Shown: positions 12,425 through 21,974 of the stretch, in pieces
Numbering within the stretch: position 1 is the stretch's first letter
Layout of the letters: the number at the start of each line of letters is the position of its first letter
Assembly (NCBI RefSeq): GCF_000970045.1
Contig: NZ_CP009505.1
Location: forward strand, 3,310,808 to 3,374,807
DNA: 64,000 bases
Direction: 5' to 3'
Source: Methanosarcina sp. MTP4
GTDB lineage: Archaea > Halobacteriota > Methanosarcinia > Methanosarcinales > Methanosarcinaceae
Notes under the pieces: model-generated
Told to the model about the DNA's origin: nothing
The model's database searches: none
What the model saw: only the letters and a program-made list of their open reading frames with translations
Made by a program: the position numbers and the translations under genes

Positions 12425-12820
12425 TTGAAGGGATTCAAAACAGGAGTTGAGAACATAAACAGCTATGTTATTATCCTTGGAAAAAAGTATTCCGAGAAAA
12501 ACCTCCGGCTAATCACAGGCAAAAAGGACGTTAGTTGCCACACGGAAAACATCCCTGAAGAAATGCTCCTTTTATGCGAAACTATCGAAGACCCCCTGAG
12601 GCTTCCTTACATGCTGGAAACCTTTTACACAATGCAGATTAAGAACGAAAAGGCCTTTCATTTTTCCCTGCTCCGGGTTCAGGTTGATTCGGACCTCAGG
12701 ATGCATGAGGACATCCAGAAATGCCAGCAAAGGAAATATGTTGCAGAAACCCTTGAGAAATTGCTCTACGGGGAACTGATGCTCGGAGGAGAAGTCCCGG
12801 AAATCGATGATGCTTATTAA
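12425..12820 (+). CDS. Small protein of unknown function downstream of sufB
   Basis: About 131 residues from TTG 12425. No family is evident to me. It is soluble-looking and mixed in charge, with three Cys in the first half and one near residue 97 and a C-terminal helical stretch (KYVAETLEKLLYGELML). The start is unclear: AGGAG sits inside the frame around codons 7-9, so translation could begin a little later at a weak codon. The codon usage looks coding and there is no shorter competing frame. It lies 74 bases after sufB on the same strand and ends at the T-tract array, so it is probably the last gene of the cob-suf transcript. Homologues of sufCB neighbours would be the place to look for a role. 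Confidence 0.65.
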   Translation: MKGFKTGVENINSYVIILGKKYSEKNLRLITGKKDVSCHTENIPEEMLLLCETIEDPLRLPYMLETFYTMQIKNEKAFHFSLLRVQVDSDLRMHEDIQKCQQRKYVAETLEKLLYGELMLGGEVPEIDDAY

Positions 12821-12826
12821 ACTACC

Positions 12827-13137
12827 TTTTTTAACTACCTTTTTTACTACTTTTTTACTACTTTTTTACTACTTTTTTACTACTTTTTTACTACTTTTTT
12901 ACTACTTTTTTACTACTTTTTTACTACTTTTTTACTACTTATTAACTAACCTTTTTAACTACCTTTTTTACTACTTTTTAACTACCTTTTTAACTACCTT
13001 TTTAACTACCTTTTTAACTACCTTTTTAACTACCTTTTTAACTACTTTTTAACTATACTTTTTAACTACTTTTTAACTATACTTTTTTACTACTTTTTAA
13101 CTACCTTTTTTACTACCTTTTTAACTACCTTTTTAAA
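12827..13137 (+). terminator. Array of about 26 T-tracts (terminator-like tandem repeat)
   Basis: The plus strand repeats ctacttttttacta and ctacctttttaa every 11-12 bases, giving about 26 runs of five to seven T. Archaeal RNA polymerase terminates at oligo-T runs on the non-template strand, so this would be a very strong terminator for the upstream cob-suf genes. The first part has an 11-base unit with T6, the second a 12-base unit with T5. A Phe/Thr/Leu-rich frame across it is an artefact. Confidence 0.75.
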
Positions 13138-14762: not shown

Positions 14763-16166
14763 ATGGCAACGGAATATGCGTTGAGAATGGGAGACGGAAA
14801 GAGGATCTTCCTGAGCAAAGAAAAGATTCTGGAGGAGCTTGAAGCGGGGTCTGCTGATGCTGCAGACCTGGGAGAAATCCCTGCTCTCAGCGGGAATGAA
14901 ATCGACAAGGTCGCAGAAATCCTGATGATGCCGGGTAAAACCGTAAGTGTGGAACAGGGCATGGAAGTGCCTGTTACCCACGACATCGGGACCCTCAGGA
15001 TTGACGGGGACCAGGGGAACAGCGGCGTAGGTATTCCCTCCAGCCGCCTGGTCGGCTGCATGATGCACGAGAGGGCTTTTGGTGCCGACACCATGGAACT
15101 GGGTCACATTGACTACAGTTACAAGCCTGTTAAGCCTGTCATCTCAAACGAGTGCCAGGCAATGGAAGTCTGCCAGCAAAACATGATCGTTCCACTCTTC
15201 TACGGGGCAATGCCGAACATGGGCCTGTACTACACTCCAGACGGTCCCTTCGAAAATCCCGGAGACCTCATGAAAGCTTTCAAAATTCAGGAAGCCTGGG
15301 ATTCCATGGAACATGCCGCAGAACACCTCACCAGGGACACCATCTGGATCATGCAGAGGCTCATGGCAAGCGGGTCCGACGGTGTGAACTTCGATACCAT
15401 CGGGGCAGCAGGAGACGGAGACTTCTTCGGATCCCTCCACGCAATCGAAGCTCTTCGGAAGGAATTCCCGAACATCTACATCGAAGCCGGCATGGCAGGT
15501 GAATGCGTTCTCGGGATGCATGGGGAACTCAAGTACGACGGCACAACCCTTGCAGGTCTCTGGCCGCACCAGCAGGCACCCCTTGCCGCAAAGGCGGGAG
15601 CAAGCGTCTTCGGGCCTGTATGCAACACCAATACCAGCAAGACCTCTCCCTGGAACCTGGGCCGTGCGGTCACCTTCATGAAGGCAGCCGTGGAAGCATC
15701 CACAATCCCCTGTCATGTGGACATGGGTATGGGTGTAGGTGGAATCCCGATGCTTGAGACCCCGCCCATCGATGCGGTGACCAGGGCGAGCAAGGCAATG
15801 GTCGAGATTGCCGGCGTAGACGGCATATAGATCGGAGTCGGCGACCCGATGGGTATGCCGATTTCCCACATCATGGCTTCCGGGATGACCGGGATCAGAG
15901 CAGCAGGAGACCTTGTAGCAAGGATGGAGTTTTCAAAGAAAATGAGAATCGGTGAAGCCAAGGAATACGTCGCAAAGAAGCTCGGCGTTAGCACCCTGGA
16001 CCTCTCGGACGAGCACGTCATGCGCGAACTCCGTGAAGAACTCGACATCGGTGTAATCACCTCCGTGGCAGGCGCAGCAAAGGGCATTGCCGCAAAGATG
16101 AACATCGAGAAGCTGCTCGATACAAAGATAAACTCCTGTGACCTCTTCAGGAAACAGATCGCATAA
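14763..16166 (+). CDS. mtbB: Dimethylamine methyltransferase with in-frame amber (pyrrolysine)
   Basis: Transfers a methyl group from dimethylamine to MtbC. The frame runs from ATG 14763, with a perfect GGAGGTGA upstream, to TAA 16166 through a single TAG at 15828-15830, decoded as pyrrolysine at residue 356. Total 467 residues, the usual MtbB length; both halves are in the same frame and remain MtbB-like across the TAG, so this is not a pseudogene. The sequence around the amber (VEIAGVDGI before, [13 protein letters not shown] after) lies in the TIM-barrel active site. Reading it as two genes would be wrong. No UAG-stop alternative is useful, since the truncated 355-residue product would lack the catalytic residue. 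Confidence 0.97.
15828..15830 (+). other. Pyrrolysine codon UAG in mtbB
   Basis: In-frame TAG in the mtbB frame, at residue 356. Pyrrolysine is inserted by PylS and tRNA-Pyl, which are not encoded in this window. Confidence 0.95.
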
Positions 16167-16516: not shown

Positions 16517-18004
16517 ATGGCACAATGTAACGCATTTGCAGGATTCGATTATCTTGAGGGCGTGGAACTGAACCTCTTTACCGCAGACGAGCTCAAGGCG
16601 ATCCACTACGCCACAATGGAAGTCTTAATGAACCCGGGTATCCAGGTCTCGGACCCGGAAGCAAGGCAGCTATTCAAGGAAAACGGCTGTGAGGTCAATG
16701 AGAAGACCCAGGTCGTTAAAATTCCGGAATACCTGGTAAGAAGAGCTCTTCAGCTCGCACCGTCCAGGTTCGTGCTCTGGGGGCGCAACAAGAAGTACAA
16801 CACTGTCCAGGAAGCCGGAGGAAAGGTACACTGGACCTGCTTCGGCACAGGGGTCAAGATGTGCCGGTTCCAGGACGGCAAGTACGTAACCGTGGACTCC
16901 GTGGAGCAGGACATTGCGGATATCGCAAAACTCTGTGACTGGGCCGAAAACATCGACTACTACTCCCTGCCAGTCTCGGCGAGGGACTGGGCAGGCAAAG
17001 GAGCCCAGGACGTCCACGAGACATTCACTCCGTTAACCAACACTCAGAAACACTTCCACCACATCGATCCCGTGGGCGAGAACGTGGAGTACTACTGGGA
17101 CATCGCAAAAGCATTCTACGGAGGGGACGAAGAAGAAACCCGCCGAAAACCGATCTTCTCCATGCTGCTCTGCCCGACTAGCCCACTGGAACTCAGCGTC
17201 AACGCCTGCCAGGTCATCATCAAGGGTGCCCGCCTGGGAATCCCGGTAAACGTCCTGAGTATGGCAATGTCCGGAGGGTCATCTCCCGTCTATCTTGCAG
17301 GGACGCTTGTGACCCACAATGCCGAAGTCCTTTCCGGAATCGTGCTTGCCCAGCTCACAGTGCCCGGATCAGCAGTCTGGTACGGAAGTTCCACCACGAC
17401 CTTCGATCTGAAGAAGGGTACTGCTCCTGTCGGATCTCCTGAACTTGGCCTGATCAGTGGAGCTGTCGCAAAACTCGCACAGTTCTACGGTCTTCCTGCA
17501 TTCGTGGCAGGCACTTAGTCTGACGCCAAAGTTCCGGACGACCAGGCAGGGCACGAAAAGACCATGACCTGTCTCCTTCCAGCCCTCTCTGGTGCAAACA
17601 CCCTCTACGGTGCAGGGATGCTTGAGCTTGGTATGACCTTCTCCATGGAACAGCTGGTAATCGACAACGACATCATCAAGATGACCAAAAAGGCAATGAA
17701 GGGAATCCCTGTCAACACCGAGACCCTTGCAGTTGAGTCCATCCAGAAAGTAGGCATAGGAAACAATTTCCTGGCTCTCAAACAAACAAGAATGCTTGTG
17801 GACTACCCTTCCGATCCTATGATCATTGACAGGCAAATGTTTGGAGACTGGGAGCACGCAGGCTCCAAGGACCTGGCAGCCGTGGCAAACGAGAAGGTCC
17901 TGGATGTCATGAAACACCATGAGGTCCCGCCAATCGACGCCGACATCCTCAAGGACATGCAGGCAGTCGTGGACAGAGCTGACAAGGCCTTCAGGGAGGG
18001 ATAA
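16517..18004 (+). CDS. mttB: Trimethylamine methyltransferase with in-frame amber (pyrrolysine)
   Basis: Transfers a methyl group from trimethylamine to MttC. The frame runs from ATG 16517 to TAA 18004 through one TAG at 17516-17518 (pyrrolysine 334), total 495 residues, the normal MttB length. The codons on both sides (LPAFVAGT, then [14 protein letters not shown]) continue one TIM-barrel protein. It belongs to the COG5598 MttB superfamily, most non-methanogen members of which lack the amber codon. mttC starts two bases after the stop. The 350-base gap upstream may hold its own promoter. Confidence 0.97.
17516..17518 (+). other. Pyrrolysine codon UAG in mttB
   Basis: In-frame TAG at residue 334 of mttB, inside the codon run GGC ACT TAG TCT GAC. 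Confidence 0.95.
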
Positions 18005-18006
18005 AA

Positions 18007-18660
18007 ATGGCAAGCAAAGAAGAAATCATCGCCAAAGCAAAAGAAGCAATTACCGAATATGATGAGGAAATGGCAGAAGAAGCAGCAAACGAGGCCCTCA
18101 AAGAAGGGATAGACCCTGTGGAAATCATCGAGCACGGCTTTACGGAGGGCATGCAGGAAGTAGGAGAACAGTTCGAACAGGGGACAGTATTCCTTCCCCA
18201 CGTGCTAGCTGCAGCCGAGGCAATGAAAGCAGGAATCGAAGTTATGAAACCGGAGATGGAGAGAAGGAAATCCAAAACAGAAAAGAAAGGAACAATCGTT
18301 ATCGGGACCATCGAAGGAGATATCCACTCCATAGGAAAGGACATCGTTGCTTCCATGCTCAACATTGCAGGCTTTGAAGTGATTGATCTCGGAAGAGACG
18401 TGCCCATCAAGACCTTCATTGAAAAGGCAAAGGAACTCAAGCCTGAATTCGTTGCGAGCTCCGCCCTCATGACTACCACCATGGTTAACCAGATCCAGAT
18501 CGAGGAACAGCTTAAAGAAGCAGGCATCCGCGACCAGGTAAGGACAATGGTCGGGGGCGCTCCGGTTACCCAGGACTGGGCTGACAAGATAGGGGCCAAC
18601 ATCTACGGGGAAAATGCCACTGACGCGGTGAACAAGATAAAAGCGGCATTGGGATTCTAA
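18007..18660 (+). CDS. mttC: Trimethylamine corrinoid protein
   Basis: Cobamide carrier methylated by MttB. 217 residues from ATG 18007, two bases after the mttB stop, with GGGAGGG (17995-18001) overlapping the end of mttB. The N-terminal cap with FLPHVLAAAEAM and the DIHSIG motif at 105-110 (cobalt ligand His107) match the corrinoid methyltransferase family. It has the same length and organisation as MtbC in this operon and the same first seven residues, consistent with duplication. It supplies methyl groups to the MtbA-type coenzyme M methylase, which is not in the window. Confidence 0.95.
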   Translation: MASKEEIIAKAKEAITEYDEEMAEEAANEALKEGIDPVEIIEHGFTEGMQEVGEQFEQGTVFLPHVLAAAEAMKAGIEVMKPEMERRKSKTEKKGTIVIGTIEGDIHSIGKDIVASMLNIAGFEVIDLGRDVPIKTFIEKAKELKPEFVASSALMTTTMVNQIQIEEQLKEAGIRDQVRTMVGGAPVTQDWADKIGANIYGENATDAVNKIKAALGF

Positions 18661-18825: not shown

Positions 18826-19872
18826 GTGGATCTGAAAGCTTTGAAAAAGCAGGAAAGCAAACGAAAAATCAGTAAAGGGTACATGTGGGCCCTTTTCTGT
18901 GCCGTATTCTGGGGAATCTGGTATCTGCCGGGCACTGTTGTCTGGGTGCTGAACCCCTTTGACGAAATGTTCGGAGTCATTGCCGGGACAAACGGAGACG
19001 CAGTATCCCTGGTTGTAACAGCAGTCCTGATCACCGCATTCAATGCACTTACGGTTATGCTTGCCCTTATGGTCTGGAATGGGGTGCTGCAAAAATTCGG
19101 GGAACTGGGCCGTACACTAAAGGAGTTCAATCCCTGTTCCAAGTGGTTCTTCCTTGCCTCAATCTTCGGGGGACCGGTTGCGATTCTCGGGTCCTTTATG
19201 GCAATGGGATTTATCGGCGGCGCATTTGCCGCGGTTGCTGCCCTTCTCTATCCTGTGGTCGGGTCCGTGCTTGCATATTACTGGTACGGGGAAAAAATTA
19301 CAAAGAGAGCTGCAATCGGAATTTTAGTTATTATTCTTGGAGGAATTACGATCTTTGGCGGCGGGCTCATTACCGAGCTTGGTGCAGGAGAAGTGCCCTG
19401 GATCGGATACCTCGGCGGACTGATGGCAGCTGCCGGCTGGGGAATTGAAGGTGCAATCGCAGGTAAGGGACTTGACATTGCCGAGCCTGATGTGGGGCTG
19501 ACCCTCAGGTTCCTGGGAGAAAACATCATCTGGTGGATCCTTATCGTGCCTATTCTGGCAATAGTTGGCTTCCCGATGTATTCCTTTGCATTCCAGGCCT
19601 TTGAGCCTCTGACCCTGCTGGTCCTTATCTTTGCAGGGATTACCTTTGGTTTCTGTTATGTATGCTGGTACAAATCTTTCCCCCTGATAGGAGTCGGGAG
19701 AGGGCAGGGCATAGGAAACCTCTACGGACTGTGTGCCATTATCTTCATCTTCCTCTTCTTCGGGGATGTGCCCCAGTGGACAATCCTGCTTGGAGGTGCG
19801 CTCTGTGTTGCCGGGAGTTTCATCATGTTCACGGAAGAAGCCGGAGAACTCGAAACCTTGAGAGGTGAGTGA
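18826..19872 (+). CDS. mttP: Probable methylamine permease
   Basis: 348-residue membrane protein with about ten hydrophobic segments arranged in two halves, as in the drug/metabolite transporter (EamA-like) superfamily; the stretch after GGAFAAVAALLYPVVGS, then YYWYGEKITKR, is typical. Position after mttC is where Methanosarcina carries mttP, thought to import trimethylamine. Transport has been inferred from context rather than shown, as far as I know. The start is GTG 18826, five bases after GGGAGGAG. The gap from mttC is 165 bases and includes short inverted repeats. The stop lies one base before the next gene. Confidence 0.9.
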   Translation: MDLKALKKQESKRKISKGYMWALFCAVFWGIWYLPGTVVWVLNPFDEMFGVIAGTNGDAVSLVVTAVLITAFNALTVMLALMVWNGVLQKFGELGRTLKEFNPCSKWFFLASIFGGPVAILGSFMAMGFIGGAFAAVAALLYPVVGSVLAYYWYGEKITKRAAIGILVIILGGITIFGGGLITELGAGEVPWIGYLGGLMAAAGWGIEGAIAGKGLDIAEPDVGLTLRFLGENIIWWILIVPILAIVGFPMYSFAFQAFEPLTLLVLIFAGITFGFCYVCWYKSFPLIGVGRGQGIGNLYGLCAIIFIFLFFGDVPQWTILLGGALCVAGSFIMFTEEAGELETLRGE

Positions 19873-19873
19873 A

Positions 19874-20167
19874 ATGGGAAACCGACCGTTAAAATTCAGG
19901 ATTCTGGAACTTTTCCTCGACGAAAAAGAACACTGGAACTATGAAATAGTTTCAAAGATAATGGAAGAGTACGGGATGAAGGGAGATTACCACAGGGACA
20001 GCATCAACTTCGATATCATCGAACTGGCATCCGGAGGAATGCTGAAAGATATAGAACAAAAAGTGGATGAAGAGGGGATCTACAAAAAAGGTTTCCTTCT
20101 GCACAGGTACATGATTACGGACTTCGGAAAAGTCCGGGGTTCGGACGCATGTCTGAGATACGTGTAA
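19874..20167 (+). CDS. Small winged-helix-like protein in the trimethylamine operon
   Basis: 97 residues from ATG 19874, five bases after GAGGTGA; GTG 19865 is an alternative that overlaps mttP. The pattern (RILELFLDEKEHWNYEIVSKIMEEY, a basic helix, then a beta-hairpin-like FLLHRYMITDFGKVR) resembles a winged helix-turn-helix, so it could be a regulator or an RNA/DNA-binding adaptor; I do not recognise the family. It is not membrane-bound. It starts one base after mttP ends and is followed after 21 bases by a tiny membrane protein, so all three are very likely co-transcribed. Confidence 0.75.
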   Translation: MGNRPLKFRILELFLDEKEHWNYEIVSKIMEEYGMKGDYHRDSINFDIIELASGGMLKDIEQKVDEEGIYKKGFLLHRYMITDFGKVRGSDACLRYV

Positions 20168-20188
20168 AAGTGAAACGGAGGGGTTAAT

Positions 20189-20338
20189 ATGGTACAAACA
20201 GAAGCCGCAATGGAAGCCTACAATGCCTACTGGGCAAATTCCTTCATACCTGCCGGAGACATTATGTGGATGATTTTAATCCTGATCCTGGCAGTGATTG
20301 CGCTCTGGCAGGCCAGGACCTTTGTGTCCCAATTCTGA
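20189..20338 (+). CDS. 49-residue single-span membrane protein, last gene of the trimethylamine operon
   Basis: ATG 20189 follows GGAGGGG by five to six bases, an excellent ribosome binding site. The product is 49 residues: a short soluble N-terminus with aromatic residues (YNAYWANSFIPAGD), one transmembrane helix (MWMILILILAVIALW) and a short basic tail (QARTFVSQF). Its place directly after mttP and the HTH-like gene suggests an accessory subunit of the permease. It is below the length cut-off of many gene finders and could easily be missed. No paralogue is visible in the window. Confidence 0.72.
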   Translation: MVQTEAAMEAYNAYWANSFIPAGDIMWMILILILAVIALWQARTFVSQF

Positions 20339-20613: not shown

Positions 20614-21297
20614 TTACAGGAGGTACCAGTCCGTATCGTCAACCGAGAGGTCTTCCCGGAGACCGACCTTCCTCCCGGGAAGCTTTAAAGCTTCTGCAAT
20701 TGCATCGGAAAAGTCCTGCAGGTACTCTTTGCAGGAGAGACTGTTGTAGATGAAGGATTTTTCGGGCTGGAGCATACTCCGGATTGTGGATTCCCTGGGG
20801 ACCAGGGAAACTTCCACATCCACCATTTCCAGAGCCTTTTCCATGGCAGTCCGGAAATCCCCGATACAGTAAGCAATCCTGTGCCCGTAATTATCCCGGG
20901 TCTTTTCGAGATAACAGGCAAGCCGTTCACTTTCGATTTTTATAAAATCCCTTTTGATCTGCGTCACATTGCATTTTCCCATCATGAATTTGTAGTGCAT
21001 GAAAGGGTACTGCGTGTCAAGTTCCCTGGGGGCAACCCCGCAGGTCCCGAAAGTCACAACGTGCACATCCTCGGGTTTTGCAAGTCCGAAGATGATCCGG
21101 TCGAATTTTTTATGGGATGGGCTTTCATGGTAGGGTTTCCTCTTTGCACAGGGAACAAAAATACAGATTTCCCTAAAAGGGGCTTCGTATTCGTTCAAAA
21201 TCCACTCGTTGGCCCTTACCATATCCGGATGGTAAATAATCCTCTCGTTATCAAGAGGCTCGGAAGAGCGTTCATCTTCAGGAATAATCGGCTTCAT
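20614..21297 (-). CDS. DUF5591-family protein (ArcS-related)
   Basis: 227 residues. The motif VPCAKRKPYHESPSHKKF (about 49-66) and FGTCGVAPRELDTQYPF (about 83-99) match the DUF5591 domain that forms part of archaeosine synthase ArcS, the enzyme family acting on preQ0-modified tRNA. Here the domain stands alone, without the PUA or TGT-like parts, so its substrate is unknown; a role in tRNA archaeosine formation or a related base modification is inferred. The start is ATG 21297 with GGAAG upstream. It is convergent with the trimethylamine operon and not obviously in an operon. Confidence 0.75.
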   Translation of the reverse strand: MKPIIPEDERSSEPLDNERIIYHPDMVRANEWILNEYEAPFREICIFVPCAKRKPYHESPSHKKFDRIIFGLAKPEDVHVVTFGTCGVAPRELDTQYPFMHYKFMMGKCNVTQIKRDFIKIESERLACYLEKTRDNYGHRIAYCIGDFRTAMEKALEMVDVEVSLVPRESTIRSMLQPEKSFIYNSLSCKEYLQDFSDAIAEALKLPGRKVGLREDLSVDDTDWYLL

Positions 21298-21524: not shown

Positions 21525-21974
21525 GTGAAAACACAGAAAAACCTGAAAAAAGGTAAACTGCTAAGTGGTCTTATGGCAAATTCAATTCATGAGATGATAA
21601 GAGCAAGCTTCAGGTGCGAGGACATGGTAAAATGTGTGCTTGGTTTGAAGTCCCTTGACATCGATGCATACAAAGCCCTGCTCACTTCCGGCCCCCTTAC
21701 AGCCGAAAACCTGGGTGAAATCCTTAACAGAGAAAGGAGCACTGCATACCGTTCCCTTCAAAACCTGATAGCCTGCGGTGTTGTTTACCGGGAAACCCGG
21801 TCCATTGAAAGCGGAGGATACTACTACGAATACGTGGCAATCGAACCCCAGGAAATGAAAACGATGGTCAAGAAAAACGTGGATGAATGGTACGACCAGA
21901 TGAACGATTTGATTGAAAAAATGGATGATAAAATGAATATCCTTATCATAAGAATGGACGATGAGGAAGACTGA
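21525..21974 (+). CDS. HTH transcriptional regulator (TrmB/MarR-like)
   Basis: About 149 residues from GTG 21525; ATG 21573 (133 residues) is also possible and neither has a clear ribosome binding site. Residues 45-115 form a winged helix: LTSGPLTAENLGEILNRER, recognition helix RSTAYRSLQNLIACG, and a wing VYRETRSIESGGYYYEYVA. The C-terminal 35 residues are a Met/Asp-rich amphipathic helix, probably for dimerisation. It lies about 1.2 kb from the methylamine operon with an unrelated gene between, so its target is unknown. Confidence 0.8.
   Translation: MKTQKNLKKGKLLSGLMANSIHEMIRASFRCEDMVKCVLGLKSLDIDAYKALLTSGPLTAENLGEILNRERSTAYRSLQNLIACGVVYRETRSIESGGYYYEYVAIEPQEMKTMVKKNVDEWYDQMNDLIEKMDDKMNILIIRMDDEED

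Follow-up and report, generated by a model that had tools for sequence, protein, structure and literature searches.

The mttP gene of the trimethylamine operon and the two small genes behind it, encoding proteins of 97 and 49 residues (P97 and P49), probably form one uptake system, composed of a DMT permease, a winged-helix subunit, and a single-helix membrane subunit. Most likely, the uptake machine depends on P97 and P49 as obligatory components, and they do not act as gene regulators. We also lean slightly toward a wider claim, that the three genes represent an unrecognised class of three-subunit DMT importers, in which a methylated-amine permease works only with a winged-helix subunit and a membrane subunit of 36-56 residues; this class would span three archaeal classes and the proteobacteria, and would be exchanged as a unit between pathways.

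Gene organization of the locus

The window, i.e. the whole 64,000-nucleotide stretch that was analysed, belongs to a 4.21 Mb Methanosarcinaceae chromosome (Methanosarcina sp. MTP4). The operon reads mtbC, mtbB, mttB, mttC, mttP, P97, and P49 on the + strand. Two neighbours have in-frame amber codons, and Rfam pyrrolysine elements confirm what they are: the dimethylamine methyltransferase gene mtbB (14763..16166), with Rfam PYLIS_2 at 15828-15927, and the trimethylamine methyltransferase gene mttB (16517..18004), with Rfam PYLIS_3 at 17516-17615. They are followed by mttC (18007..18660), which encodes a corrinoid protein, and mttP (18826..19872), which encodes a permease of 348 residues and ends with a TGA stop at 19870-19872.

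Both small open frames lie where that reading had placed them, and the good ribosome binding sites ascribed to them can be read as purine-rich motifs. The ATG of P97 (19874..20167, +) is at 19874, a single base beyond the mttP stop, and its 97 codons lead to a stop at 20165-20167; its Shine-Dalgarno-like GAGGTGA (19863..19869, +) is within the mttP 3' end. P49 (20189..20338, +) has its ATG at 20189, with 21 bases between it and the P97 stop, and runs for 49 codons to a stop at 20336-20338; its own Shine-Dalgarno-like motif is GGAGGGG at 20178..20184 (+). The source genome contains a second complete mttP-P97-P49 set (C1:3788303-3789804). In comparisons of the source genome with three congeners, or with its own second copy, dN/dS was 0.04-0.10 for P97, 0.02-0.08 for P49, and 0.04-0.07 for MttP. 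Because of these low ratios, the two frames are more than chance frames; they are real genes under strong purifying selection, like mttP.

Three other features of the window were recorded. A TrmB/Lrs14-like winged-helix protein (21525-21974, +; Pfam TrmB, 65 bits) is encoded 1.2 kb beyond the operon end, and is a more ordinary candidate than P97 for a DNA-binding regulator here. A DUF5591/archaeosine-synthase-like domain protein (20614-21297, -) stands by itself and is convergent with the operon. An open frame of near-perfect TTFLLLFYYF repeats (12807-13052, +) is probably a tandem DNA repeat and not a gene.

Linkage of the triplet across archaea

Among 120 related genomes, mttP was found in 58 and P97 in 57; all 57 have both, and the gene order is kept. 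In the order of Methanomassiliicoccus UBA6 (Methanomassiliicoccales), 53 of 147 genomes have mttP-like genes and 52 have P97, again all in common. Every genome with an untruncated mttP has P97 somewhere, in both sets. The sequence-only reading had asked whether the pair is always linked to mttP or mttP mostly stands without it. When this was tested, P97 was located directly 3' of 150 of the 162 mttP-family genes of the Methanosarcinales and Methanomassiliicoccales, on the same strand and with a gap of -10 to 156 bp (median 10 bp in the 120-genome set and 26 bp in the 147-genome set). Five of the 12 remaining genes are at contig ends. The other seven, most of which are second or damaged copies, comprise an orphan on a Methanohalobium plasmid, one broken gene, and three second tandem permeases that share a P97-P49 pair; the last two, from Methanomassiliicoccales, are second copies. 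A P49-like protein of 36-56 residues with a conserved basic tail follows P97 in 44/44 additional cassettes, often with an overlap of 4-8 bases. The pair is therefore linked to mttP in nearly all cases, and the refuting outcome did not arise. Only one P97-like gene was found with neither a permease nor a P49 neighbour (L236:5232-5615, G533). In a Thermoplasmatota sample, no homologue was found beyond the genomes already covered by the Methanomassiliicoccales search.

Diverged copies of the triplet probably take up other methylated amines. In three diverged arrays (L034, L036, and L037), two mttP-like permeases flank one P97-P49 pair between two different methyltransferase sets, and their substrate may differ from trimethylamine.

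Several single loci were also observed. A second cassette (L083:2925-3387, G033) has a frameshifted P97 with intact mttP and P49, and the genome carries another intact set. In three Methanomassiliicoccales loci (L201, L205, and L229), the gene 3' of the P49-like gene was recognised by eye as a four-helix SMR/SugE-like transporter. In a third archaeal class, one genome (G137) has the triplet beside pylC and pylD; in its P97 (L156:5602-5940, -), an in-frame TAG immediately precedes the recognition helix. Because pylC and pylD are adjacent, this TAG could be read as pyrrolysine; it could also mark a damaged gene.

Fold of P97 and its fusion to the permease

P97 had been described as winged-helix-like, and structure prediction agrees. 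The AlphaFold2 (AF2) model (pLDDT 92.2, pTM 0.84) is a winged helix in the order H1-H2-H3-strand-wing-strand-H4. The best solved Foldseek matches of this model were PadR, RosR, and related regulators (TM-score 0.57-0.68 by query); for the PadR-type winged-helix fold, the predicted model gave an E value of 6e-4 and a TM-score of 0.68 by query. Scans of P97 and P49 against Pfam, NCBIfam, and PADLOC gave only chance-level matches, and neither protein fits a curated family. A PDB sequence search with the P97 profile likewise returned chance-level matches only, e.g. ATP synthase subunit b. The P97 family has no family-wide conserved cysteines.

These matches raise an alternative in which P97 binds DNA as PadR proteins do and regulates the methylamine operon; MttP or P49 would be its co-sensor, and P49 a separate permease subunit. 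The fold matches are in its favour, as are a weak PadR profile similarity (E 3e-4, probability 38.5%) and the general habit of PadR regulators, which are often encoded beside the small-molecule transporters that they control. Against it, 0/52 P97 members match Pfam PadR (PF03551) at E<=0.1. The would-be recognition helix has a mean net charge of -2.0, which is weak evidence, since P97 and true PadR proteins cannot be told apart cleanly by net charge. P97 is always behind the permease, with about one copy per paralogous permease copy, and accompanies it into another pathway in bacteria. In two species it is fused to the permease. Because of the fusions, the one copy per permease copy, and the unrelated trimethylamine-oxidising pathway in bacteria, a free DNA-binding P97 is disfavoured, and we regard this alternative as unlikely. 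The "regulator" of the sequence-only reading may thus stand as a permease-bound subunit, but not as a free DNA-binding protein that regulates the methyltransferase operon; for the proposed sensor pair, no result of this analysis points to sensing.

The fusions were found in two Methanomassiliicoccales species, where a single open frame of 519 codons (G493) or 517 codons (G494), counted from the preceding stop, covers both mttP and P97 (L228:2955-4472 and L207:286-1797). The linker is hydrophilic, with 27 or 29 residues; an in-frame gap of 6 bases accounts for the difference between the two. For the P97 part, dN is 0.044 versus a dS of 0.214. P49 next to the fusions is a separate overlapping gene. 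Of the arguments for placing P97 on the permease, the fusion is the strongest, and it rests on two close relatives. Long P97 frames at several GC-rich loci were considered as further fusions and rejected as upstream out-of-frame read-through; the real fusion is in two genomes only.

The permease and the small membrane protein

MttP belongs to the EamA/DMT superfamily (Pfam EamA, 59.7 bits against a cut-off of 28.2) and is a putative trimethylamine importer. Its model has about 10 long helices, and the DMT structures LicB and 5i20 match it, which suggests a 10-helix DMT fold. The closest solved fold is the LicB choline importer (7paf), which was matched by the permease part of a read-through AF2 model (L015), a close MttP homologue, with an E value of 5.4e-8 and a TM-score of 0.83 by target. 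The gene context and the LicB-like fold suggest that trimethylamine is the substrate of MttP; transport by MttP itself is unproven to date (PMC11708041).

The one transmembrane helix claimed for P49 fits its sequence, and membrane association has been measured for the Methanosarcina mazei homologue sORF_05 (MM_RS18880), which is translated and found mainly in the membrane fraction (PMC11456600). The homology is based on synteny: P49 fits the description of the sORF_05 family in its operon place behind mttP and a hypothetical gene, and in its duplication with the operon. Because the M. mazei protein was studied in 2024, calling both genes uncharacterised is partly out of date. The helix flanks of P49 have a charge of -2.0 on the N side and +1.9 on the C side, and the C side is above the N side in 30/30 sequences. 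Because the N side is acidic and the C side basic, an N-out/C-in topology is predicted. The C-terminal tail of P49, ALWQARTFVSQF, is conserved and basic (A-L-W-Q-A-R-x-F-V). No relevant match to the curated small transporter-subunit models of NCBIfam was found among 30 P49 members, and a PDB sequence search with P49 gave no match.

The idea that the 49-residue protein is a small subunit of the permease is supported by its linkage and by the membrane association of its homologue. Alternatively, P49 might inhibit the permease or tag it for turnover, in the manner of MgtR or of sP36 acting on AmtB1, and not be a constitutive subunit. In M. mazei, overexpression of sORF_05 under nitrogen sufficiency slows growth (PMC11456600), and sP36 inhibits AmtB1 (PMC10714827); both speak for such a role. 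However, P49 is kept with the permease in every lineage and in the same order, and a pure inhibitor would presumably be lost more often. An inhibitor role is thus improbable, and P49 is better regarded as a permease subunit.

Bacterial copies and trimethylamine dehydrogenase

Bacterial copies were sought by tblastn in 72,556 plasmid records. With P97 as query, only two Paracoccus aminovorans plasmid records were found (35%); the Azoarcus copy also retrieved its own source, Azoarcus sp. KH32C, and Cupriavidus oxalaticus. The bacterial plasmid records with an mttP-family gene (4/4) are exactly those with P97. All three bacterial loci that were read encode a protein of 36-37 residues ending in LYHARTFVTKI, which is absent from the gene table. 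In the permease tree, the three bacterial sequences group together with a support of 0.95, next to the diverged archaeal copies.

The flavoenzyme of the Azoarcus locus is a trimethylamine dehydrogenase, which aligns to PDB 1djn over 729/729 residues with 1453 bits (histamine dehydrogenase, 532 bits); its gene is about 11 kb away from the permease. In P. aminovorans, an enzyme with 73% identity to it is encoded together with an Fe-S protein, ETF, an aminomethyltransferase, and the triplet of permease, P97, and P49, all in one direction and with short gaps. Three Paraburkholderia plasmids have trimethylamine dehydrogenase without the permease set. Since the triplet adjoins trimethylamine dehydrogenase, which is unrelated to the methanogen methyltransferase, the module follows trimethylamine uptake, and not methanogenesis or one catabolic enzyme. 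A pair specific to methanogenesis was also considered, and is ruled out by the bacterial copies. No paper on the bacterial triplet was found in the open-access literature.

The bacterial loci also bear on a further role for P97, as a docking platform that holds MttB and MttC at the permease for direct substrate handover. The archaeal cassettes usually adjoin mttB/mttC or mtbB/mtbC, as docking would suggest, but the bacterial triplets have trimethylamine dehydrogenase and ETF in place of MttB/MttC. A common docking surface on P97 is therefore unlikely, and this role is considered very improbable next to that of a permease subunit.

Proposed three-part permease

In the proposed uptake system, P49 would lie against MttP, its N-terminus facing outward and its basic tail reaching into the cytoplasm. 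P97 would be on the cytoplasmic face, next to the MttP C-terminus, which is the fusion point in some species. It might keep the permease stable or open, as FeoC does for FeoB, and could couple the permease to the cell state. The physical complex, its topology, and the stabilising or gating role are proposed from the linkage, the fusion, and the models. A read-through MttP-P97-P49 with all parts in frame (L015) was modelled by AF2 with a pLDDT of 86.3 and a pTM of 0.75, a single-chain prediction with no inter-chain error map.

A marine and gut source of methane begins with the uptake of trimethylamine. If the permease needs both small proteins, assays of MttP by itself may fail, and the triplet provides a concrete minimal set. 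The triplet is also a gene signature of trimethylamine users that is independent of the catabolic enzyme. If the proposed role is true, P97 would be another "transcription-factor fold" used as a transporter subunit.

Comparison with known systems

The closest known system is that of M. mazei, where sORF_05, the permease MM_1691, and MM_1692 occupy the same operon place and are, by synteny, the same three genes (PMC11456600). The study speculated that sORF_05 is an integral permease subunit, and reported its homologues in Methanosarcinaceae only; MM_1692 was left hypothetical, and no fusion, no other classes, and no bacteria were reported (PMC11456600). No other relevant paper in the open-access literature searched mentions MM_1692. 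Translation, membrane association, and a possible permease-subunit role of the P49 homologue had thus already been put forward (PMC11456600); the P97 fold, the near-obligatory triad, the MttP-P97 fusion, and the bacterial occurrence are new here.

The PadR family (PF03551) resembles P97 in the predicted fold, down to the helix that follows the wing, and differs in that P97 accompanies, and is twice fused to, a permease. In CadC/ToxR, a winged helix and a single membrane helix are in one polypeptide, whereas P97 and P49 are separate and the fusion partner is a 10-helix permease. LicB shares the fold of MttP and imports a trimethylammonium compound, but the two are only 19% identical (PDB 7paf, 7b0k). 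AcrZ, MgtS, MgtU, and similar single-helix modulators have roughly 30-55 residues and bind a transporter (PMC10710835), as may P49; P49 differs in going with a DMT carrier, in its conserved cytoplasmic tail, and in its three-gene set.

We know of no accessory subunits of LicB. The FeoC protein of the ferrous iron transporter FeoABC is itself a winged helix. It is small, encoded with its permease, and acts on it, being required for uptake in V. cholerae and shielding FeoB from FtsH in Salmonella (PMC10710835, PMC8749426). FeoC has no sequence relation to P97 (no Pfam FeoC match among the 52 P97 members scanned) and can carry an Fe-S cluster; FeoB is an NTPase, whereas MttP is a DMT carrier. By analogy, the fusion and the linkage suggest that P97 might bind and stabilise its permease as FeoC does.
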